Made by a program: the position numbers and the translations under genes. The notes under the pieces were generated by a model that searched no databases, had not been told where the DNA came from, and saw only the letters and a list, made by a program, of their open reading frames with translations. DNA of 64,000 nt from Maritimibacter alkaliphilus (lineage in GTDB: Bacteria; Pseudomonadota; Alphaproteobacteria; Rhodobacterales; Rhodobacteraceae): assembly GCF_019801605.1 (NCBI RefSeq), contig NZ_JAHVIT010000004.1:124001-188000 (forward strand), given 5' to 3'. Numbering within the stretch: position 1 is the first letter of the stretch; every line of letters begins with the position of its first letter. This document shows positions 21,050-59,076 of this stretch, one piece after another.

Positions 21050-22600
21050 ATGTTCCGCCTGATGCTGACCACCGCCCTTGCTGCGCTGCCGCTGGCCGCC
21101 GCCGCACAGGAGATCACCGTTGGCGCCGCCAACGTGACCCCCTACGTCGATCCCGGCCGCGACCACTCCAACGTCGGTTCGCAGTTCTACTACAACACCT
21201 TCGACACGCTGATCGACCGGGACCACACCAAGCTGGAGCCCGAGTGGACCCCCGGCCTCGCCACCTCCTGGGAGCTGATCGACCCGACCACCATGGAGCT
21301 GAAGCTGCGCGAAGGCGTGAAGTTCCACAATGGCGACGAGATGACCGCCGATGACGTGGTCTTCTCGCTCAACCGGATGTTCCAGGCGACCTTCCCGCCC
21401 TACGTGGTGCGCGCCAAGGACCGGTTCGGCAACTTCACCGGCGCCGAGAAGGTGGACGACTACACCATCCGCATCCACGCCGCCCGCGAAGAGCCTCTGT
21501 GGGAAACCCTCGTCTCGATGCAGCAGGCGATGATCATCCCCGAAGCCTACACAAAGGCGCTGACCGGCGACCCGGACGTGGCCGAGGACAGCGACTTCGA
21601 GGCCTTCTCGCTCGCGCCCGTGGGCACCGGCCCCTACAAGATCGCCTCCTTCCAGCCCGGCGAGAAACTGGTCTGGGAACGGTTCGATGACTTCTGGGGC
21701 GAGGCCGCCCCGCTGGAGCGCGCGACCGTCGTCCAGATCGCCGAGACCGCCAGCCGCGTGACCGCGCTGAAGACCGGCGAGGCCGACATCATCACCAACG
21801 TGGCCCCCGACCAGCTCTCGCTGATCGACAATGATCCGAACATGAAGACCGAAGGCTCTGCCACCGCGCTCTTCCATGTCATGATCATGAACCAGAACCA
21901 CCCCAAGCTGCAGGACCCGCGCATCCGTCAGGCGATGTCGCTGGCCATCGACCGCGACGCCCTGAACGAGGCGCTTTGGCTGGGCAAGGCGGTTGTCCCC
22001 TCGACCCACACGATGGCCGAGATGGGCGCACTGCATCAGCCCGACCTCGTGACCTTCGAATACGATCCCGAGCGCGCCAAGGCGCTGCTGGAGGAAGCCG
22101 GCTACGACGGGTTCGAGATCACCTATGACACCGCCGCGACCTACTACACCAACGGCCTGCTGGCCGCGCAGGCGATCATGGAGATGTGGGCCGCCGTCGG
22201 CATCAACGGTCGGGTGAACGTGCAGGACCAGTGGTCCGGCAAGGACCCCGAGATGATGACGCGCAACTGGTCGAACCCGATGTACTTCGCCGACCCGTTC
22301 GGCTCCTTCGGCGTGATGTGGGCGCCCGGTGGCCCCTCGGAAAGCGAAGGCCGGTTCAACACCGACGCCGAATATGCCGAGAAATGGGAGCGCTTCCGCT
22401 TCTCCACCGACGTCGAGGCCCGCAAGGCCGCCTACGTCGAGGTGATGGAAGAGATCAAGCAGGACCCGCCGGTTCTGCCGCTGTACCGCCCGTTCGAAAG
22501 CTGGGGCATGCAGAACGCCGTGACCTGGGCGCCGATGCCCGGCCACATCCCTTACGTTCTCGACTTCCGCGCCGGCAACATCTCCCTCGCCGGGAGCTGA
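21050..22600 (+). CDS. Peptide-type ABC substrate-binding protein (DppA/OppA class)
   Basis: A 516-residue SBP_bac_5 family protein with a Sec signal peptide (about residues 1-19, ending 'AAAAQ') and family motifs 'MELKLREGVKFHNGDEMTADDVVFSLNRM' and 'PVGTGPYKIASFQPGEKLVW'. Such proteins bind peptides, nickel, glutathione or sugar and glycerol phosphodiesters. The operon with a HAD phosphatase and a metallophosphoesterase favours a phosphate-bearing ligand. A strong hairpin follows the stop codon. Confidence 0.9.
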   Translation: MFRLMLTTALAALPLAAAAQEITVGAANVTPYVDPGRDHSNVGSQFYYNTFDTLIDRDHTKLEPEWTPGLATSWELIDPTTMELKLREGVKFHNGDEMTADDVVFSLNRMFQATFPPYVVRAKDRFGNFTGAEKVDDYTIRIHAAREEPLWETLVSMQQAMIIPEAYTKALTGDPDVAEDSDFEAFSLAPVGTGPYKIASFQPGEKLVWERFDDFWGEAAPLERATVVQIAETASRVTALKTGEADIITNVAPDQLSLIDNDPNMKTEGSATALFHVMIMNQNHPKLQDPRIRQAMSLAIDRDALNEALWLGKAVVPSTHTMAEMGALHQPDLVTFEYDPERAKALLEEAGYDGFEITYDTAATYYTNGLLAAQAIMEMWAAVGINGRVNVQDQWSGKDPEMMTRNWSNPMYFADPFGSFGVMWAPGGPSESEGRFNTDAEYAEKWERFRFSTDVEARKAAYVEVMEEIKQDPPVLPLYRPFESWGMQNAVTWAPMPGHIPYVLDFRAGNISLAGS

Positions 22601-41185: not shown

Positions 41186-41677
41186 ATGACCCGATCCCAT
41201 GAAACCCGCAGGACCTTTCTTGCTGCCGGCGGCGCGTTGCTGCTCGCCGGGACTGGCGGCGTGTGGAGCGTGCCGGCCCGTGCGGCGGGGCTTGCCCCCA
41301 CGCCCTCGATGCGGGGCGGTTCGAACAATTACCGGCCGAACGCGCCCATCGTGGAGCGGATCGGAAATGGCGGTTTCTGGATGAGCGGTACGGTGAGGCG
41401 CGCGGGGGACGGGGCGCCGCTCGCCGGTCAGCGCATCCAGATCTGGGCGCATACCACCGAGGGCCACGAGCGTGAGCAGCGCAGCCATGGCGCGACGCTG
41501 ACCGATGCCGAGGGCCGTTTCCGGCTGGAAATGCCGCAGATCATCCCGGCCTTCGGACAGCCACACGGCCACCTCGCCTATGACAGCGGTGAATTCGAGA
41601 CGGTGTTCCTGCGCCCGGTGATGCGCAACCCCGGCGATCGCGCGCTGGAAGCGCATTTCGTGCTTCAGCCGGTCTGA
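41186..41677 (+). CDS. Tat-exported intradiol-dioxygenase-fold protein, incomplete iron site
   Basis: A 163-residue protein with a twin-arginine signal ('HETRRTFLAAGGALLLAG') and a beta-sandwich region like intradiol ring-cleavage dioxygenases ('MSGTVRRAGDGAPLAGQRIQIWAHTTEG', 'RSHGATLTDAEGRFRLEMP'). The H-x-H pair of the iron site is kept (H127 and H129 in 'PHGHLAY'), but the preceding tyrosine ligand position reads 'IIPAFG', with phenylalanine. It may therefore bind a metal without being a catechol dioxygenase. It is followed after three bases by a membrane cytochrome-like gene, suggesting a two-component exported unit. Confidence 0.75.
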   Translation: MTRSHETRRTFLAAGGALLLAGTGGVWSVPARAAGLAPTPSMRGGSNNYRPNAPIVERIGNGGFWMSGTVRRAGDGAPLAGQRIQIWAHTTEGHEREQRSHGATLTDAEGRFRLEMPQIIPAFGQPHGHLAYDSGEFETVFLRPVMRNPGDRALEAHFVLQPV

Positions 41678-41680
41678 CCC

Positions 41681-42292
41681 TTGGCGTCATCACGGACGGA
41701 CAGACGCCGCATCGGGCTGATCTGGGGGGCCGCCGGCCTGATCGCGCTTGTCCCGGTCCTTGCCGCGATGGGGAGCCCGCTGCTGGCATGGCGTCAGCCG
41801 GTCTATATCGCGGCAGGATTTGCGGGCATCCTTGCCCTCGCGCTGCTGCTCTTCCAGCCCCTGTTGGCGCGGGGGGGCCTGCCGGGGACCGAGGGGCGCC
41901 GCGGGCGCCGCTTGCATGCCGCGCTCGGCCTCCTGCTGGTCGGGGCGATCGTCGTGCATGTGGCGGGGCTCTGGATCACCAGCCCCCCGGACGTGATCGA
42001 CGCGCTTCTTCTGGCCTCGCCCACTCCGTTCTCGCTCTGGGGTGTGCTGGCGATGTGGGGGCTCTTCGCGTTGGCCGCGTCGACCCTGATCCGGCGACGC
42101 GGACGGATCTGGCGGCGGCTGCATCGTGGGCTTGCGCTCTGCGTCGTGGCCGGCAGCGTGGTGCACGCTCTGCTGATACAGGGAACGATGGAGCCGGTGA
42201 CGAAGCTGCTGCTCTGCGCCTGTGTCGGTGTCGCCGCCTGCGCTGCGGTGTTCCGGGCCCGGGGCAGCGGGGGCCTGCTACGCAAGCGGTGA
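41681..42292 (+). CDS. Ferric-reductase-like membrane cytochrome b protein
   Basis: A 203-residue protein with about six transmembrane segments. Histidines in 'RRLHAALGLLL', 'AIVVHVAGLW', 'RRLHRGLALCV' and 'SVVHALLIQ' are spaced in two pairs of helices, as expected for two b-type haems in ferric-reductase-like or MsrQ-like domains. The start is a TTG three bases after the upstream stop, so the two genes are coupled. It could pass electrons to the exported partner. No flavin domain is fused. Confidence 0.75.
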   Translation: MASSRTDRRRIGLIWGAAGLIALVPVLAAMGSPLLAWRQPVYIAAGFAGILALALLLFQPLLARGGLPGTEGRRGRRLHAALGLLLVGAIVVHVAGLWITSPPDVIDALLLASPTPFSLWGVLAMWGLFALAASTLIRRRGRIWRRLHRGLALCVVAGSVVHALLIQGTMEPVTKLLLCACVGVAACAAVFRARGSGGLLRKR

Positions 42293-42503: not shown

Positions 42504-45500
42504 ATGGAAAAGTCCCTCTTTCGTTACATCTGGACCTATTCGAAGGTCGACCAGATCAAGCTGCTGATCGTGACCCTTGTCGCCTTCCCGGTGATGTATG
42601 TCTCGCTCGAGCTGCCCAAGCGGATCATCAACGATGCCATCGGCGGCACCGGTGAGGATGTCTTCGTGCTGGGGATCCGCCTGACGCAGGTGGAATTCCT
42701 GATGCTGCTCTGTTTCGGCTTCCTGCTGGCGGTGACGACCAGCGGGCTGATCAAGATGGCCCTGAACACCATGCGCGGCATCGTGGCGGAACGGCTGCTG
42801 CGGCGGGTGCGGTTCCAGATGCTGACGCGGCTGCTGCGCTTCCCGCAGCCCTACTTCCGGCGCACGAGCCAGGGCGAACTGGTGTCGATGATCACCTCCG
42901 AGGTGGAACCCATGAGCGGGCTGATGGGGGATTTCCTGTCGCAGCCGGTGTTCCAGGCCGGGCAGATGCTGACCATCCTCGCCTTCCTCTTCGCGCAGAG
43001 CTTCTGGTTCGGGCTGGCCTCAATCGCGCTGATCCCGGTGCAGGCGCTGGTGATCCCGATGCTGCAACGGCGGATCAACCTGCTGAACAAGGCCCGGATC
43101 CAGGAGATCCGGCACTTTGCCACCGACATCGGGGAATCCGTCAACGGGGTGAGCGACCTGCGGATCAACGGCGGCACGCGCTACAACCTCGCGCAGTATT
43201 CGCGTCGCCTCGGGGTGCTCTTCACGATCCGGCTGGAGATCTTCAAGAAGAAGTACTTCATGAAGTTCCTCAACAACCTGCTGAACCAGCTGACGCCGTT
43301 CTTCTTCTACTCGGTCGGCGGCCTGCTGGCGATCAAGGGAGAGATCACGGTGGGCGCGCTCGTCGCGGCGCTCGCGGCCTACAAGGACATCGCCTCGCCC
43401 TGGAAGGAACTGCTGACCTACTACAACCAGACGCAGGACATGGCCGTCCGCTGGGAGGTGCTGGTCGACAAGTTCAAGTCGAGCCCGCTGGTGGATGACG
43501 CGCTCTTCGAAGGGCGCGCGCGCCAGATCCCGCGCCTGAACGGCGATATCGAACTGCGCAACGTGACCGTGATCGACGAGGATGGCCGCCCCGTGCTGGA
43601 GGACATCAGCTGTGTCATCCCGGGCGGGTCGCGCGTGGCAATCCGGGCCGATTCCGACAATGCCGCCATCGCCTTCGCTGAACTTCTGGCGCGCGAGGTG
43701 ATCCCCTACAGCGGCCGCATCCTGATCGACGGGATGGACCTGAACGCCCTGCACCAGGACGTGATCTCGACCCGGATCGGCTATGCCAACTCCAGCCCGC
43801 ATTTCTTCCACGGGACGCTGCGGGAAAACATGATGATGCCGTTCCGCAGCGGCATGCCCGGCCACGAGGAACTGCCCCAGGACGTCCGCAAGTGGCAACA
43901 GGAGGCCCGGCGCAGCGGCAACAGTCCCGAGTCGCCCGACATCGACTGGGTCAATCCCGGTGTCGCCGGGTTCAGCACCATCGACGAGGTCCACGACTGG
44001 TGGTTCCAGCTGGTGCAGGCGATGGACATGGACGAGGCCCTTGTCCGGCGCGCGCTGAGCCGGCGCATCGACCCGGCGCATATGCCCGAACTGGCGGAGG
44101 CGCTGGTGCGCCTGCGGCCCGAGATCGCGCATCGCCTGCGGGTGGCGGGGCTCGACGACGTGGTGCACCGGTTTGACCCCGAGAGCTTCAACCCGGTCTC
44201 GCCGCTGGCCACGAACCTGCTCTATGCCCTGCCGCGCAAGATGCTGTCGCAGGTTTCGCTGTCGCGCAGCGTGAACTTCCTGCGCGTGCTGCGGGATCAG
44301 GGCCTGACCGGGGAACTGGCGCCCATGTCGGCCAGCGTGCTGCTGGAGATGCGGGCCACCTTTGGCGTGGATGCGACGGAGCACCCGCTGTTCCGGCGCC
44401 TGAACCTCGACCGGGACCTCTACGTGAGGCTGACGGATATCGCGGCCCGCTGGCGCGACGAGGGCGATCACGGCCTGAGCTCCGAGGAATTCGCGCTGAT
44501 GCTGACGGTGCCCTTCGCCTTCTCCGCCGAGGAGATGGGGCCCAGCTTCGACGAGACCTTCCGGCAGCGCATCCTCGACATCCGCAAGCAGAACGCCGCG
44601 CATATGCTGGAGCAGCTCGACGGGCTCTTCGAGCCGATCGAGCCGGACCGCTACTTCCCGGTGATGAGCCTGCTGGGCAACGCGATCTTCGGGCGCATCT
44701 CGCGCACGGCGGGCGCCCGCGAGGAGGAGATCATCGACCTCGTTGCGCAGGTGCTGAACGAACACGGGCTGCGGCGCAGCGTTGCGCAGGCGATCCTCGA
44801 CGTGGAAGTCAGCGCCGGTGGCGAGAGCCTGAAGGTGGTCAACCGCGAGCGGGTGGCCTTCACCCGCGCGGGCATCAAGAAGCCCGACATCCTGATCCTG
44901 CGCAACATCCTCGCCAGCCACTCCCGTGACGACCGCGAGGCGAGCCGCAACCGGGTCAGCCACCTGCTGCCGACCTCGACCAAGATTTTCATCGAGCGCA
45001 AGTTCTACCGGCCGGAGCAATATGATCTCTACCTCGAGATCACCGACGGGCGCATCGATGGCGCCATGTCGGAGCAGGACGAGCCGATCGACGCCCGTGC
45101 CCGCGAGAGCCTCGAACGCAAGCTGCGGGTGCTGTCGCGGACGGCGCTTTTCGGCGGGCTGGACCTGAAACAGCGCAAGCTGCTGGCCTTCAGCTCGGTC
45201 TGGTTCCGGGTCAAGGCGGGGCAGCGGATCTTCCATGCCGGGCAGGTGGCGGACGCGGCCTACCTCTGTCTGGCCGGGCGGGCTGCCGTCCACTGGCCGG
45301 GGGAGGCCGGGGGCAAGGCCCCGCCGATCACCGAGGTGGAGCCCGGCCGCCTGATCGGGGATCTGAACATCATCCTCGGCATGGCGCGGACAATGGACTT
45401 CTACGCGGTGGAGGACTGCATCTTCCTACGGATCGGGGCGGAGGAACTGCTCTCGGTCATCGAGAACGACGCGGGCGTGGCGACGGACATGCTGCGCAAG

Positions 45501-45602
45501 GTCTCGCGCAATCTGGTGACCGCCTCGGCCCACGGGCGGGCGGTGCATGAATATGCCGTTGCCCACGGGGTCGACTACGCCGAGTTCGATCCGGACCTGT
45601 GA
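42504..45602 (+). CDS. ABC-exporter-like protein with degenerate ATPase domain, long insertion and cyclic-nucleotide-binding domain
   Basis: The 1032-residue protein begins with an ABC-exporter membrane domain (about residues 1-325, six helices, 'RLLRFPQPYFRRTSQGELVSMITSEVEPMSGL'). An ATPase-like domain follows, but Walker A reads 'RADSDNAAI' (381-389) with no GKS/T, the signature reads 'VSAGGESLK' (769-777), Walker B 'PDILILRNI' (794-802) has R-N in place of D-E, and the switch histidine is missing ('KIFIERKF'). About 320 extra residues are inserted between the Q-loop position and the signature. Residues about 880-1005 form a Crp-like cyclic-nucleotide-binding domain. ATP hydrolysis is unlikely. 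Function is unknown; a sensor or a partner subunit is possible. Confidence 0.85.
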   Translation: MEKSLFRYIWTYSKVDQIKLLIVTLVAFPVMYVSLELPKRIINDAIGGTGEDVFVLGIRLTQVEFLMLLCFGFLLAVTTSGLIKMALNTMRGIVAERLLRRVRFQMLTRLLRFPQPYFRRTSQGELVSMITSEVEPMSGLMGDFLSQPVFQAGQMLTILAFLFAQSFWFGLASIALIPVQALVIPMLQRRINLLNKARIQEIRHFATDIGESVNGVSDLRINGGTRYNLAQYSRRLGVLFTIRLEIFKKKYFMKFLNNLLNQLTPFFFYSVGGLLAIKGEITVGALVAALAAYKDIASPWKELLTYYNQTQDMAVRWEVLVDKFKSSPLVDDALFEGRARQIPRLNGDIELRNVTVIDEDGRPVLEDISCVIPGGSRVAIRADSDNAAIAFAELLAREVIPYSGRILIDGMDLNALHQDVISTRIGYANSSPHFFHGTLRENMMMPFRSGMPGHEELPQDVRKWQQEARRSGNSPESPDIDWVNPGVAGFSTIDEVHDWWFQLVQAMDMDEALVRRALSRRIDPAHMPELAEALVRLRPEIAHRLRVAGLDDVVHRFDPESFNPVSPLATNLLYALPRKMLSQVSLSRSVNFLRVLRDQGLTGELAPMSASVLLEMRATFGVDATEHPLFRRLNLDRDLYVRLTDIAARWRDEGDHGLSSEEFALMLTVPFAFSAEEMGPSFDETFRQRILDIRKQNAAHMLEQLDGLFEPIEPDRYFPVMSLLGNAIFGRISRTAGAREEEIIDLVAQVLNEHGLRRSVAQAILDVEVSAGGESLKVVNRERVAFTRAGIKKPDILILRNILASHSRDDREASRNRVSHLLPTSTKIFIERKFYRPEQYDLYLEITDGRIDGAMSEQDEPIDARARESLERKLRVLSRTALFGGLDLKQRKLLAFSSVWFRVKAGQRIFHAGQVADAAYLCLAGRAAVHWPGEAGGKAPPITEVEPGRLIGDLNIILGMARTMDFYAVEDCIFLRIGAEELLSVIENDAGVATDMLRKVSRNLVTASAHGRAVHEYAVAHGVDYAEFDPDL

Positions 45603-52846: not shown

Positions 52847-54078
52847 GCCAGTTCACAGATATCGCAGAGGGTCATCAGGTAGATGCGGATGCAGTCGAGG
52901 TAATCGGTGATCTCGACCCGCTCGTCGGGCATGGTGTTGAACTTGCCGCCCGGGCCGCAGACGATCCCCTCCATGCCGCCATGTTCATAGAGATGCCCCG
53001 CGTCGGTGCCGAAGTAGCCCGGGGGCGTGATCGCCCCGGTGGGCTGGGGCACGCCGCGCACCGCCTCGTAGGCGGCGTTGATCGCGGTGACGATGTGGCT
53101 GTCGCGGGAGACCTCGAAGGCGGGCATGATCGGGCGGCCTTCCTTGGCCTCCGAGCGGACGGTGGCCTTGAGGCCCGGCATCCGCTCGGCCAGCCCGTCC
53201 AGCACGCGCTGGATGTCGGCGAGGGCATTCGCCTCCGTCTGGCCCGGCCCGTAGCGGCCCGAGCCCTTGAGCCGCACGAAATCGGCCACCTGCGGAGGGC
53301 GCCATTCATGCAGGTCGCGGCCGAGCGCCCCGTGCATCACGCCCACGTGGACGCGGTTGATCGAGCGGTGTTCCTCGCTCGGCGCGTCGGAGAAGGTCAT
53401 CTCCGTCAGCTCGGGGATCAGGGTGCAGGCCGCGAGGATGGCATCCACCGCCGCTTCGCGTTTCGACAGGTGGCGGGTGACGCCTTCCAGCTCGATCACG
53501 AAGGTGAAGGCGGCGGCATGCATCGTCACGGCCTGAAGGTCCGAGGGTTCGGAGTTGATGAAGTAATCCGCCCGCAGCCCCGCGTTCACCGCGGCCAGCG
53601 TGCCGACCCCGCCCTGAAGCTCGCCGATGACGAAGGTCAGGATCACGTCGCCCTTGAGGCGCACGCCGTTGCGGATCAGCGTTTCGACCGCCGAGAGATA
53701 GGCCGCGTCGCCCGCCTTCATGTTCGACACGCCGATGCCGTAGATGAATTCCTCGTCGATTTTCCCTTCCCAGGGATCGACCGTCCAGCCCTCGGTGGCG
53801 GGGTTGGTGTCGAGGTGGCCGTTGAACAGCAGGCTCTTGCCGCCGCCGGTGCCGCGCCAGATGCCGATGGCGTTCACGCGCTCGCCCTCGACCGGCATCA
53901 GGTAGGCCTCGTCGAGGCCGATTTCCTGCATCACCGCGACCATGCGTTCGGCCAGCACACGCTCGCCCGGGGTTTCCGAGTAGCTCTTGTGCTGGACCAT
54001 GTCCGCGAGGCGCGACAGGCAGGCGGGGGCGTCGATGCTGTCGGCAAGCGCCTTGGGGTCGAAGGTGGGCGAGGTCAT
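52843..54078 (-). CDS. M20-family (ArgE/DapE-fold) protein with altered metal site
   Basis: A 411-residue protein of the M20 fold. The first metal histidine and aspartate are kept in 'LFNGHLDTNP', and 'NSEPSDL' is normal. The bridging-Asp motif reads 'GVSNMKAG' (Asn instead of Asp), the Glu-Glu pair reads 'GELQGG' (Leu for the second Glu), and the last His motif reads 'NTMPDERV'. Thus three metal ligands are changed. It may bind one metal or act as a non-hydrolytic or altered-specificity enzyme. The start overlaps the ABC ATPase stop by 4 bases. Confidence 0.84.
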   Translation of the reverse strand: MTSPTFDPKALADSIDAPACLSRLADMVQHKSYSETPGERVLAERMVAVMQEIGLDEAYLMPVEGERVNAIGIWRGTGGGKSLLFNGHLDTNPATEGWTVDPWEGKIDEEFIYGIGVSNMKAGDAAYLSAVETLIRNGVRLKGDVILTFVIGELQGGVGTLAAVNAGLRADYFINSEPSDLQAVTMHAAAFTFVIELEGVTRHLSKREAAVDAILAACTLIPELTEMTFSDAPSEEHRSINRVHVGVMHGALGRDLHEWRPPQVADFVRLKGSGRYGPGQTEANALADIQRVLDGLAERMPGLKATVRSEAKEGRPIMPAFEVSRDSHIVTAINAAYEAVRGVPQPTGAITPPGYFGTDAGHLYEHGGMEGIVCGPGGKFNTMPDERVEITDYLDCIRIYLMTLCDICELA

Positions 54079-55763
54079 GCTTGGGGCTCCATCAGGTCCG
54101 GCTGGTCTTCGGGACGGTGCGGCACCGGCACCGCGTTCAGCAGCGCCTGCGTGTAGGGGTGCCGCTCGGGCGATCCGGCGTCCGCCACGTCGAAGGCATC
54201 GACCAGCGCGCCGCGCTGGAAGACGACGATCCGATGCGCCAGCTGGCGGATCAGGTTGAGGTCATGGGTGATGAAGATGCAGGCCGCGCCGGAACGCTTT
54301 TGCAGGTCCACCAGCAGCCGCGCGACAGCAGCCTGCACCGAAACGTCGAGCGCGGCGGTGATCTCGTCGCAGATCACCAGACGCGGTTCGGCGGCAAAGG
54401 CCCGGGCGATCGCCACGCGCTGCTTTTCCCCGCCCGACAGCTGGTGCGGATAGCGGCTGGCATACTCCGCCGGCAGCAACACCATCTCCAGCAGCTCGCG
54501 CACCCGTTGGCGCACCTCGCCCGCGGGGCAGAGCTTGTAGAGCTTCAGCGGGCGCGAGAGGATGCCCCCGATGGTTTCGCGCGGGTTCAGGCTCGAATCC
54601 GGGTGCTGGAAGATGATCTGCACATCGCGGCGATACTTGCGGTCGAAAGCCTCGCGCGAGGCGAAGCTGCGCCCGTCGAAACGGATCTCGCCCTCGAAAG
54701 GGTTCAGCCCGGTTGCCGCCTTGGCGATGGTGGACTTGCCCGATCCGCTTTCGCCCACGATGCCCAGCAACTCGCCCGGGCGGACGTCCAGCGTGATGTT
54801 GCGCGCGCCCCAGTGGGCGGCGGCACTCTTGTCCAGCATCCGGGTCAGCCAGCCGGGGGCATTGTACTGCACGCCCACGTCACGCGCCTCGAAAAGCGGC
54901 GTGTCCTCGGTGGGGGCGGGCAGGGCCAGCCGGTCCTCGGGCCGGGGCAGGGCGGCCAGCAGCTTGCGCGTGTAGGGGTGCTCCGGCGCGCCAAAGACGG
55001 TTTCCAGATCGCCCTGTTCGACGATCTTGCCCTTGTGGATGACCGACACCTTCGAGGCGATCCGCGCCACCAGCCCGAGGTCATGGGTGATGTAGAGCGC
55101 GGCCACCCCGGTCTCTTCCCGCAGGCGGATGAAGAGGTCGAGGATCTGGTTCGCCGTCAGGATGTCGAGCGCGGTGGTCGGCTCGTCGAAGATGATCAGC
55201 TCGGGATTGCAGGCGAAGGCGGTGGCGATCACGACGCGCTGCTTCTCGCCGCCCGAACATTCATGCGGGTAGCGCAGCATCATCTCGGCGGGCTTGGCGA
55301 TGCCGGTGCGGGCCAGGGCTGCCTCGCCCTCGGCCCAGGCCTCCTTCTGGGACATGCCGCGGTGCCGGATCAGCACCTCTGCCAGCTGTTCCCCCAGACG
55401 CATGGTCGGGTTCAGCGACGAGGAGGGGTCCTGGTAGACCATCGCGATGCGGCGGCCGCGCAGGGCCTCCAGCTCGGCCCGGCCCTTGCCGATCATGTCC
55501 TCGCCCGACAGCAGGATCGCGCCGCCGGTGTCGCGGGCGTTCTCGGCCATGTAGCGGGTGATGGCCCAGGCCAGCGTCGACTTGCCCGAGCCGCTTTCGC
55601 CGACAAGGGCGTGGGTCTCGCCGCGCCAGATCATCAGCGAGACGTCGTCGAGCGCGGTGGTGGTCCCGGACTCGGTGTCATAGGCCATCGAGTAGTGGCG
55701 CACGTCGAGGACGGGGGCCTCGGCCTGCGGTTTGCCCCGGTCGGTGCGGATACGGCTGCTCAT
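54075..55763 (-). CDS. Fused two-domain dipeptide-type ABC ATPase
   Basis: A 562-residue protein with two ATPase domains. Both have intact Walker A (GESGSGKST), signatures CSGGEKQR and LSGGEKQR, and Walker B with glutamate ('LIIFDEPT' and 'LVICDEIT'). It drives the permease pair encoded just upstream. Its start overlaps the DppC-like stop by one base and its end overlaps the M20 gene by four, so the whole operon is tightly coupled. It is a second, independent Dpp-type importer in this window, distinct in sequence from that at 23550-25205. Confidence 0.92.
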   Translation of the reverse strand: MSSRIRTDRGKPQAEAPVLDVRHYSMAYDTESGTTTALDDVSLMIWRGETHALVGESGSGKSTLAWAITRYMAENARDTGGAILLSGEDMIGKGRAELEALRGRRIAMVYQDPSSSLNPTMRLGEQLAEVLIRHRGMSQKEAWAEGEAALARTGIAKPAEMMLRYPHECSGGEKQRVVIATAFACNPELIIFDEPTTALDILTANQILDLFIRLREETGVAALYITHDLGLVARIASKVSVIHKGKIVEQGDLETVFGAPEHPYTRKLLAALPRPEDRLALPAPTEDTPLFEARDVGVQYNAPGWLTRMLDKSAAAHWGARNITLDVRPGELLGIVGESGSGKSTIAKAATGLNPFEGEIRFDGRSFASREAFDRKYRRDVQIIFQHPDSSLNPRETIGGILSRPLKLYKLCPAGEVRQRVRELLEMVLLPAEYASRYPHQLSGGEKQRVAIARAFAAEPRLVICDEITAALDVSVQAAVARLLVDLQKRSGAACIFITHDLNLIRQLAHRIVVFQRGALVDAFDVADAGSPERHPYTQALLNAVPVPHRPEDQPDLMEPQA

Positions 55764-57534: not shown

Positions 57535-59076
57535 TCAGGCCTTGTTCATCCAGACATCCTCGATGAAGAAGAACCGCGAGATCGGCGCGATGTGCCAATC
57601 GACAGTGGTCTCCCGCGAGGCGGTCAGGACGTCTTCGAAGAAGGGAACGATGTAGGGGCTCTGCTCCAGCTCCAGCGCCTGCGCCTTGGCATAGATCTCG
57701 GCCCGCTTCTCGGGATCGACGGTCGAACGGCCCTCGGCCACGAGCGCGTCGAACGCCTCGTTCTTCCACTCGGTGTCTTGGTAGGAGGCGTCCGAGGTCA
57801 GCAGCAGGTTGTAGGTCGCGTCGATGGTGGGCTGCATGCCCCAGTAGCCGATGTAGAAATCGCCCTTCATCCATTCCTCTGCGAGGTAGGTGTCGTGCGG
57901 CATCGTCTTGATCTCGACGTCGAAGCCCGCGGCGCCGGCGGTCTGCTGGATCGCGATCGCGGTCTGGGCCCGGATCGCCGGACGGTCGGAGGCGACGAGG
58001 GTCACCTTCAGGCCATCGGGATAGCCGGCTTCGGCCAGCAGGGCGCGGGCGGCCTCGGGATCGTAGGGGATCACGGGCTTGTCGGTCGCGTATTCGATCT
58101 CCGGCGCGACGATCGAGTCGTAGGCCGGGCGGCCGAGACCTTCGAGGATGACCTCGACCAGCAGTTCGCGGTCCACGGCCATGCCGAAGGCCTTGCGAAC
58201 GCGGACGTCGTTCCACGGTTCCTGGTCCTGACGCATGACGACGCAGACGTAGCGGCCCGAGCCGACCTGCTGTGCCTCGACGCCGGCGCTGTCCGAAATA
58301 CGCTGGAAGTCGGCCTGCTGGACGGTCAGCATGACGTCGGTCGCGCCGGACAGGAAGTTGGCGGTTTCGGCCGCGAGGTCGGGGAAGAGCATCATCTCCA
58401 CTGCGTCCAGGTAGGGCTGGCCGGGCTTGTAGTAGGTCTCGTTCTTCACGAGGCGGACCATGCGGGCGCTGTCATAGGTCTCCAGCTTGAACGGGCCGGT
58501 GCCGTTCGCCGTGGTGTCCAGCTTGCTCAGGTCGCCTTCGAGCGCCGCGCGCGACAGGATGCGTGCGTTGGCGTGGGCGGTGGAATAGGGCAGGTCCGCG
58601 AAGGGGGCGCTGAGGGTGAATTTCACCGTCAGGTCATCCAGGGCTTCGACCTTTTCGACCATCTTCAGCACCGAACGGGCGGCCGAGGGGATGTCGGGGT
58701 TCAGAATCGCCTCGTAGGTGGCGACCACGTCATCGGCGGTGAAAGGCGTGCCATCGTGGAAAGTGACACCTTCGCGCAGGATGAAGGTGAACTCGGTCGC
58801 GTCGTCGTTCGCGCTCCACTCGGTGGCGAGGTCCGGGTGCGGCTGGTTGTCCAGACCGGTGCGGGTCAGGCCGGAATAGAGCATGTCGATGCAGGGGTAT
58901 TCCGCCGGGCCCGACAGGCTGAGGACGTTCAGGGTGGCGATCCGGGTCGAGTGGCTGATCTTCAGCGTGCCGCCCGAGACGGGCGTGGCGCCCTGGGCAA
59001 AGCTCATGCCCGGCAGGGCGGTGCTGGCCGCAAGCCCCATCAGGACGTGACGGCGGGAGAGGGTGAAGTGGCTCAT
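57535..59076 (-). CDS. Dipeptide-type ABC substrate-binding protein, Tat-exported
   Basis: A 513-residue SBP_bac_5 protein. The signal region 'TLSRRHVLMGLAASTALPGMSFA' has a twin-arginine motif, so export probably uses the Tat route. Family motifs follow: 'FTFILREGVTFHDGTPFTADDVVATYEAI' and 'TANGTGPFKLETYDSARMVRLV'. It is the first gene after the second M24 gene in the minus-strand operon. The ligand is not readable; the linked amidohydrolases suggest an amide or peptide-like compound. Confidence 0.9.
   Translation of the reverse strand: MSHFTLSRRHVLMGLAASTALPGMSFAQGATPVSGGTLKISHSTRIATLNVLSLSGPAEYPCIDMLYSGLTRTGLDNQPHPDLATEWSANDDATEFTFILREGVTFHDGTPFTADDVVATYEAILNPDIPSAARSVLKMVEKVEALDDLTVKFTLSAPFADLPYSTAHANARILSRAALEGDLSKLDTTANGTGPFKLETYDSARMVRLVKNETYYKPGQPYLDAVEMMLFPDLAAETANFLSGATDVMLTVQQADFQRISDSAGVEAQQVGSGRYVCVVMRQDQEPWNDVRVRKAFGMAVDRELLVEVILEGLGRPAYDSIVAPEIEYATDKPVIPYDPEAARALLAEAGYPDGLKVTLVASDRPAIRAQTAIAIQQTAGAAGFDVEIKTMPHDTYLAEEWMKGDFYIGYWGMQPTIDATYNLLLTSDASYQDTEWKNEAFDALVAEGRSTVDPEKRAEIYAKAQALELEQSPYIVPFFEDVLTASRETTVDWHIAPISRFFFIEDVWMNKA

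Follow-up and report, generated by a model that had tools for sequence, protein, structure and literature searches.

The window analysed here, a stretch of 64,000 nucleotides from contig NZ_JAHVIT010000004.1 of Maritimibacter alkaliphilus, contains on its plus strand, at positions 42504-45602, an open reading frame (ORF) that starts with ATG and encodes a 1032-residue ABC-exporter-like protein with a degenerate ATPase domain and a C-terminal cyclic-nucleotide-binding (CNB) domain. Judged from its sequence, this protein descends from ATP-driven exporters, the residues of ATP hydrolysis having been lost and the membrane part having stayed intact. As the catalytic residues were lost, the membrane part was kept and a ligand-binding domain stands at the terminus, the protein probably works without ATP hydrolysis, and an absence of hydrolysis throughout the window protein's clade is considered highly probable. 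The favoured interpretation, in which the protein serves a surface-glycan pathway as a membrane component that needs no ATP hydrolysis and is switched by the CNB ligand, is put forward tentatively, its combined chance being judged a little short of even.

The domain layout was established with Pfam, a family alignment and structure modelling; coordinates are those of the window, and all features of the gene lie on the plus strand. The membrane domain (residues 1-325, 42504-43478) was delimited by conservation and by a match to ABC_membrane (PF00664) at residues 39-290 (E 5.2e-19, 69.4 bits against a cut-off of 28), and the model for MsbA-type exporters (TIGR02203) aligned with residues 6-444, scoring 137.7 against a cut-off of 602. 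The CNB domain (residues 872-1005, 45117-45518) was recognised from the family alignment and a match to cNMP_binding (PF00027) at residues 902-989 (E 2.4e-11, 43.9 bits against a cut-off of 27.5). The sole match to ABC_tran was a sub-threshold piece at residues 392-468 (19.1 against 25 bits), and no peptidase domain was found in the protein with Pfam. By sequence, the best match in the PDB was TM_0288, and MsbA and BmrA are also solved relatives. A first-pass annotation, made from the DNA letters alone, had described an exporter-like protein with a normal membrane domain, a dead ATPase domain, a long insertion and a C-terminal CNB domain, and this description was borne out by Pfam and the alignments.

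By alignment and modelling, the ATPase core was divided into an N-terminal half at residues 346-432 (43539-43799) and a C-terminal half at residues 771-868 (44814-45107). The Walker A columns 378-391 (43635-43676) read VAIRADSDNAAIAF, with no G.{4}GK[ST] pattern, no Lys and no Ser/Thr, and the Q-loop at residues 425-432 (43776-43799) reads IGYANSSP, without the Gln. The signature region at residues 769-790 reads VSAGGESLKVVNRERVAFTRAG, with LKVVN occupying the LSGGQ columns, Walker B is represented by ILILRN, with R800-N801 in the Asp-Glu positions, and the column of the switch His holds R832. The same losses in Walker A, Walker B, signature and switch His had been listed by the first-pass annotation, which had also considered that the motifs might be displaced. 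That possibility was rejected: in the alignment of 130 family members the recognisable motifs of other members fall in these same columns, and those of the window protein were therefore lost rather than displaced.

A structure model of the full-length protein was unusable (pLDDT 46.9). A model of residues 338-868 reached a pLDDT of 62.9 overall, with 87-92 at model residues 11-80 and 78-88 at model residues 451-510, and low values over much of the insertion. When this model was searched with Foldseek, all matches were ABC transporters; the first were P-glycoprotein chains, whose TM-scores were low (0.19 by query), and at rank 33 stood 4k8o, the ATPase domain of TAP1, with a TM-score of 0.73 by target and 0.37 by query (rmsd 7.3). 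The modelling thus lends moderate support to a predicted split ABC ATPase fold at residues 338-868.

Graded catalytic loss and selection in the family

The family was followed with a profile (A1) of the ATPase domain and insertion, built from 22 relatives, with matches counted at E up to 1e-30. It matched 131 of the 385 sampled alphaproteobacterial genomes, 39 of the 198 sampled within the window's taxonomic family and, in a draw across the phylum, 31 of 398 genomes, all 31 of them in the window's class. Searching 72,556 plasmid records with tblastn returned 262 at E up to 1e-60, chiefly from Rhizobium (144) and Sinorhizobium (80), and in 169 of the 262 a single place covered 80% or more of the protein. 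Proteins 32-33% identical to the window protein are encoded on four contigs with Granulosicoccaceae or Chromatiales in their titles, which we take to be Gammaproteobacteria. The layout, for which the first-pass annotation knew of no characterised example, is therefore not unique, and the CNB domain is fused in 28 of the 130 aligned members. The annotated records examined label the family proteins mostly as ABC transporters or ATP-binding proteins, labels that hide the catalytic loss in a family of this breadth.

The alignment was drawn from 109 loci chosen and fetched from the profile matches in sampled genomes of the class (L073, L082-L189) and from 23 other loci. They yielded 133 family ORFs, 131 of more than 800 residues; one with duplicate last 400 residues was dropped, leaving 130 members, near-identical strains included. 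The Walker A Lys position holds Lys in 64 members and Arg in 46, and the adjoining Ser/Thr position Ser/Thr in only 8, with Glu in 49 and Asp in 40. At the Walker B Asp position, Asp was found in 21 and Asn in 59. The catalytic Glu is kept in 60, the switch His in 34, the Q-loop Gln in 24 and the signature Gln in 99. Lys, Ser/Thr, Asp, Glu and His are all absent from 36 members, the window protein among them, and on a FastTree tree this total loss required 14 changes, which implies that loss was repeated or in part regained. The G.{4}GK[ST] pattern is present in five members, and a full Walker A together with the Walker B Asp and Glu in two (L166 and L188); L166 (9077-11755, minus strand) is the sole member that is complete for all five residues. 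Given these two Walker-intact relatives and the many partial keepers, the loss is graded and the window protein's clade is its extreme, with total loss. On the question raised by the first-pass annotation, whether the Walker residues degenerate consistently across genomes, degeneracy was found to be consistent, but by degrees. Homologues with intact Walker A and B, which it had viewed as counter-evidence, do exist, but are rare and lie outside the window protein's clade.

These counts bear on whether the window protein could be an exporter that is still driven by ATP through unorthodox residues, or that needs to bind ATP but not to hydrolyse it. The frequent retention of the Walker A Lys, catalytic Glu and signature Gln in other members speaks for this, as does the completeness of L166, but all five residues are gone in the window protein and 35 other members, and the ATPase-core columns are poorly conserved. 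Such an exporter is accordingly considered improbable.

Selection on the gene was estimated against two relatives. Against L028, which is 83% identical, dN/dS was 0.216 overall and at most 0.453 in any domain (membrane domain 0.13, ATPase-core halves 0.11 and 0.24, insertion segments S0-S2, described below, 0.30-0.45, and CNB domain 0.13). Against a 67% identical relative it was 0.353 overall (0.23, 0.24 and 0.52, 0.39-0.55, and 0.42 for the same parts). These values point to purifying selection in all domains and to a catalytically dead ATPase domain that appears to have been retained as a fold. A decaying gene drifting towards loss might account for the missing catalytic motifs and for the patchy presence of the family (39 of 198 genomes), but the frame of 1032 residues is intact and both relatives have the same layout; decay was rejected on the dN/dS values and is regarded as extremely improbable.

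Conservation was also distributed in an unusual manner. Within residues 1-868 of the family alignment, 94 columns were at least 90% identical, 67 of them in the membrane domain, where many of the conserved positions are charged; R100, R101, K250 and N257 are examples of residues conserved there. In three draws of 30 family members, such columns made up 19-22% of the membrane domain and 4-10% of the ATPase core, as against 4% and 38%, respectively, in 30 canonical exporters, these being loci retrieved with one host exporter as the query and of unproven orthology. Mean identity was 41% in the family (one further draw) and 43% in the canonical exporters. Relative to true exporters, conservation is therefore inverted, being high in the membrane domain and low in the ATPase core. 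Together with the dN/dS of 0.216 and the 36 members with total loss, this agrees with the first-pass suggestion that the catalytic residues were lost while the frame and membrane part were kept under selection.

Origin of the insertion in the ATPase domain

The long insertion that splits the ATPase domain, correctly noted in the first-pass annotation, is not foreign, but consists of diverged repeats of the exporter segment that follows the Q-loop, with three repeated cores and helical filler between them. The post-Q-loop motif of exporters (roughly gT.rENi.yG) occurs three times in the window protein, as HGTLRENMMMPF, NPVSPLATNLLYALP and FPVMSLLGNAIFGR, and the Asn of each (residues 442, 571 and 726) is at least 90% conserved in the family. 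On the basis of hhalign comparisons, segment S0 (residues 433-556, 43800-44171) was assigned the first copy (HGTLRENMMMPF, 43809-43844) and helical filler, segment S1 (residues 557-712, 44172-44639) the second copy (FDPESFNPVSPLATNLLYALP) and further helical filler, and segment S2 (residues 713-770, 44640-44813) the third copy, which runs on into the signature region.

The hhalign E-values given here apply to single comparisons. S0, taken as block 428-556, matched S1 with an E-value of 5.8e-7 over 54 columns, S1 matched S2 at 1e-11 over 53 columns, and S0 matched S2 at 3.2e-6 over 26 columns, which are located in the helix that follows the motif. A profile built from 15 segments of canonical exporters matched the S0 block at 7e-9 over 17 columns, a match that was to be expected since the block contains the ordinary post-Q-loop place, and it also matched S1 (4.4e-6, 33 columns) and S2 as block 713-790 (3.5e-18, 64 columns). 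In column-shuffle controls, 60 each for S1-S2 and S0-S1, the probability never exceeded 2.3%, and in comparisons with the first ATPase-core block it was 0.6% or less. Insertion of a foreign domain was rejected in view of the internal repeat; a match to PF25825 at residues 629-660 was sub-threshold, and other weak matches were scattered and confined to single members.

CNB domain, genomic neighbourhood and candidate role

Besides the 28 fused members, 79 of the 130 have the CNB domain in a separate same-strand gene no more than 1500 bases downstream, with a median gap of 27 bases; in 23, neither arrangement was found within that distance. On the tree, all fused members fall on the same side of a single branch, so that one change (local support 93) would have joined the exporter-like protein to a partner that in other members is often encoded by the adjoining gene; some long branches in other parts of the tree make caution advisable. 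The phosphate-binding cassette of CNB domains carries a Glu and an Arg. In the family the Arg is invariant, being present in all 85 separate and all 28 fused domains, and the Glu position holds Glu in 83 of the 85 separate domains and Asp in 13, Glu in 11, Ala in 3 and Ser in 1 of the fused ones. The cassette-like stretch of the window protein, GRLIGDLNIILGMARTMDF (45345-45401), keeps the Arg and has Asp for Glu. The separate CNB protein weakly matched the NCBIfam model cyc_nuc_ocin. Fusion of CNB domains to transporters of the MFS type has been mentioned (PMC10710835), and the CNB domain of HetC binds ppGpp in vitro (PMC10986499), which calls for caution over ligand identity. Control of the family protein by a CNB ligand is considered about as likely as not.

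A role of the family in a glycan pathway is suggested, with somewhat better than even confidence, by its neighbours. The gene lies beside glycosyltransferases in Rhizobium johnstonii, Sinorhizobium meliloti, S. medicae, Mesorhizobium, Azospirillum sp. B510 and two Sulfitobacter, accompanied in varying combinations by a double ABC ATPase, a family-5 binding protein, two permeases, a nucleotide-sugar dehydrogenase, a polysaccharide deacetylase, a His phosphatase and methyltransferases. Neighbours were counted by BLAST against named cluster proteins (E no higher than 1e-15 and coverage of half or more of the named protein, in 20-kb stretches), a method preferred because shadow ORFs inflate cluster counts, at 107 loci, namely the 109 fetched less L097 (nothing above 800 residues) and L086 (a duplicate). 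Counted in this way, without a background control, a GT-a type glycosyltransferase was found at 73 loci, a GT4 type at 71, a His phosphatase at 64, a deacetylase and a methyltransferase at 53 each, and a double ATPase at 46. In strain 3841 the cluster spans pRL11 56207-69348; pRL110056, which has been called an O-antigen enzyme important for root colonisation (PMC11103875), may lie in this cluster.

The host itself has one full copy of the family and a glycan-type cluster on contig C3 (90038-109178, loci L197 and L198), which comprises glycosyltransferases, a nucleotide-sugar dehydrogenase, a deacetylase, a His phosphatase, a double ABC ATPase, a binding protein, permeases and an MscS-type channel, and ends in a membrane-domain-only paralogue of 319 residues (108219-109178). 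In a congener (G007), the paralogue, an MscS gene and ABC genes stand together in one stretch. At five other membrane-domain-only loci, the flanks of about 10 kb contained no gene of the cluster, and none was found in the stretch read around a Sulfitobacter plasmid locus. Among 65 conserved membrane-domain residues (the subset of the 67 columns in which the window protein carries the family residue), the host paralogue keeps 34, the short Sulfitobacter plasmid protein 54 and a canonical exporter 15. Genome G025 carries three membrane-domain-only relatives (L229, L230 and L233), and the profile search found no full member there. The family offers a natural series from a near-complete ATPase through total loss to the membrane domain only, which may show what that domain can do without its engine.

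The paralogue also bears on the proposal that the window protein is one half of a heteromer, pairing with a second family member, a membrane-domain-only paralogue or an active ABC half. At least two distinct profile matches were found in 26 of the 39 family-positive genomes in the window's taxonomic family (not counting the split matches of G842 or the fragments of G924), and degenerate sites are known in heterodimeric exporters (PMC7756269). The host, however, has its one full copy and no second match of the window protein on contig C4, and the sole active ABC ATPase among the annotated conserved neighbours is the importer-type double ATPase; a heteromeric half is considered quite unlikely. 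The first-pass statement that no ATPase partner adjoins the gene held for family matches on this contig, but a double ABC ATPase of the oligopeptide-importer type lies about 8 kb away (54075-55763). Two family-5 solute-binding proteins are encoded at 57535-59076 and 21050-22600. Upstream of the gene, at 41186-42292, are a small dioxygenase-C-like protein (weak, sub-threshold Pfam matches) and, directly after it, a ferric-reductase-like membrane protein.

Under the favoured interpretation, the window protein would be a type IV (MsbA-like) exporter put to a new use, its ATPase now being a structural domain. It would dimerise as exporters do, its membrane domain would act, without hydrolysing ATP, on a glycan, a lipid-linked saccharide or a partner enzyme, and the state of the CNB domain might be relayed to the membrane part by the ATPase-like domains, to which the extra coupling-like segments would lend stiffness. 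In its most specific and general form, in which widespread exporter descendants hydrolyse no ATP and a CNB ligand opens or closes the conserved membrane domain through a pseudo-ATPase braced by the triplicated segment in a surface-glycan pathway, the proposal is speculative and somewhat unlikely as a whole. It would tie a CNB ligand to surface glycans in a way open to testing, in plant symbionts too. Alternatively, the protein could be only a scaffold or sensor, whose membrane domain would transport nothing but would recruit glycosyltransferases or some other enzyme of the envelope, or control their activity, according to the CNB ligand, somewhat as FtsEX transmits force rather than cargo. The many charged residues conserved in the membrane domain would suit partner binding, co-location with glycosyltransferases fits, and FtsEX is a precedent for a non-transporting ABC complex (PMC6705773); against this, FtsEX retains its ATPase, any partner of the window protein is putative, and the membrane-domain-only forms suggest a membrane part able to act alone. 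A pure scaffold or sensor is judged unlikely, and a gate or flippase-like conduit that would serve the glycan pathway independently of ATP is favoured over it by a small margin.

Several observations weigh against the favoured interpretation. The window gene lies outside the glycan cluster; its neighbours, encoding the ferric-reductase-like protein, a DUF389 protein and a saccharopine-dehydrogenase-like protein, were not found at the loci of 11 relatives, and its flanking genes were common to none of the 11. A conserved flank was thereby rejected; two weak matches (36-37% identity) fell on genes of the window that lie tens of kilobases from this one. The family gene is away from such glycan genes in those stretches of Ruegeria that were seen, the uncontrolled neighbour counts include glycosyltransferases, a large class, and only two of eight membrane-domain-only loci, both from one genus, lie inside a cluster. 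About half of the family keeps the Walker A Lys and the catalytic Glu, so that nucleotide use is plausible in those members. As for the ligand, no class III (PF00211) cyclase was found in the host by a search that was positive in 5 of 14 control genomes and did not extend to other cyclase classes; a rhizobial cyclase query that matched four other genomes at E 3.9e-54 or better had no match in the host; and, besides some rhizobial clusters, a cyclase gene occurred in the 20-kb stretch at 4 of 107 loci. Given the negative class III search in the host, cAMP or cGMP as the ligand is doubtful. Of the first-pass idea of a cyclic-nucleotide-responsive regulator or scaffold, the regulator or scaffold may stand, with a gate or flippase fitting about equally, and the cyclic nucleotide was weakened, also by the change of Glu to Asp.

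Comparison with known systems

A family member lies on pSymB of S. meliloti strain 1021 (841723-844996). In this species SMb20813 has been called an msbA homologue (PMC10945364), insertion in msbA1 led to 20-25% more nodules (PMC2701930), and msbA1 was named among loci associated with shoot biomass (PMC9765617). This gene may belong to the family: SMb20813 may be the pSymB member, and msbA1 may be the same gene as SMb20813. Two papers on msbA2 (PMC3687685, PMC12239276) were set aside as concerning a different gene.

MsbA-type (type IV) exporters (TIGR02203, PF00664) share with the window protein the membrane domain and the first part of the ATPase domain (residues 6-444). The window protein differs from them in having no catalytic residues, three copies of the post-Q-loop segment, an added CNB domain and inverted conservation. 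In the heterodimeric exporters TM_0287/0288 and TAP, one site is degenerate. Catalytic residues have thus degenerated within the exporter fold there too, but these exporters keep one active site, whereas the window protein has no known active partner chain. To our knowledge, ligand-gated membrane devices that work independently of ATP are not known from any lineage of ABC exporters. In FtsEX, an ABC architecture is likewise thought to serve a role other than transport (PMC6705773), but it belongs to another ABC class and its ATPase FtsE is active. HetC also combines an exporter and a CNB domain in one protein, and its CNB domain is required in vivo (PMC10986499); it differs in that this domain is N-terminal and is accompanied by a C39 peptidase and a required ATPase residue, whereas the CNB domain of the window protein is C-terminal and Pfam finds no peptidase domain. 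Degenerate sites in ABC proteins and CNB domains on exporters were thus already known; what is new is an exporter lineage, of which no description was found in the open-licence literature by searches that were in part very narrow, in which conservation is inverted, one segment is triplicated and the engine is almost wholly lost.

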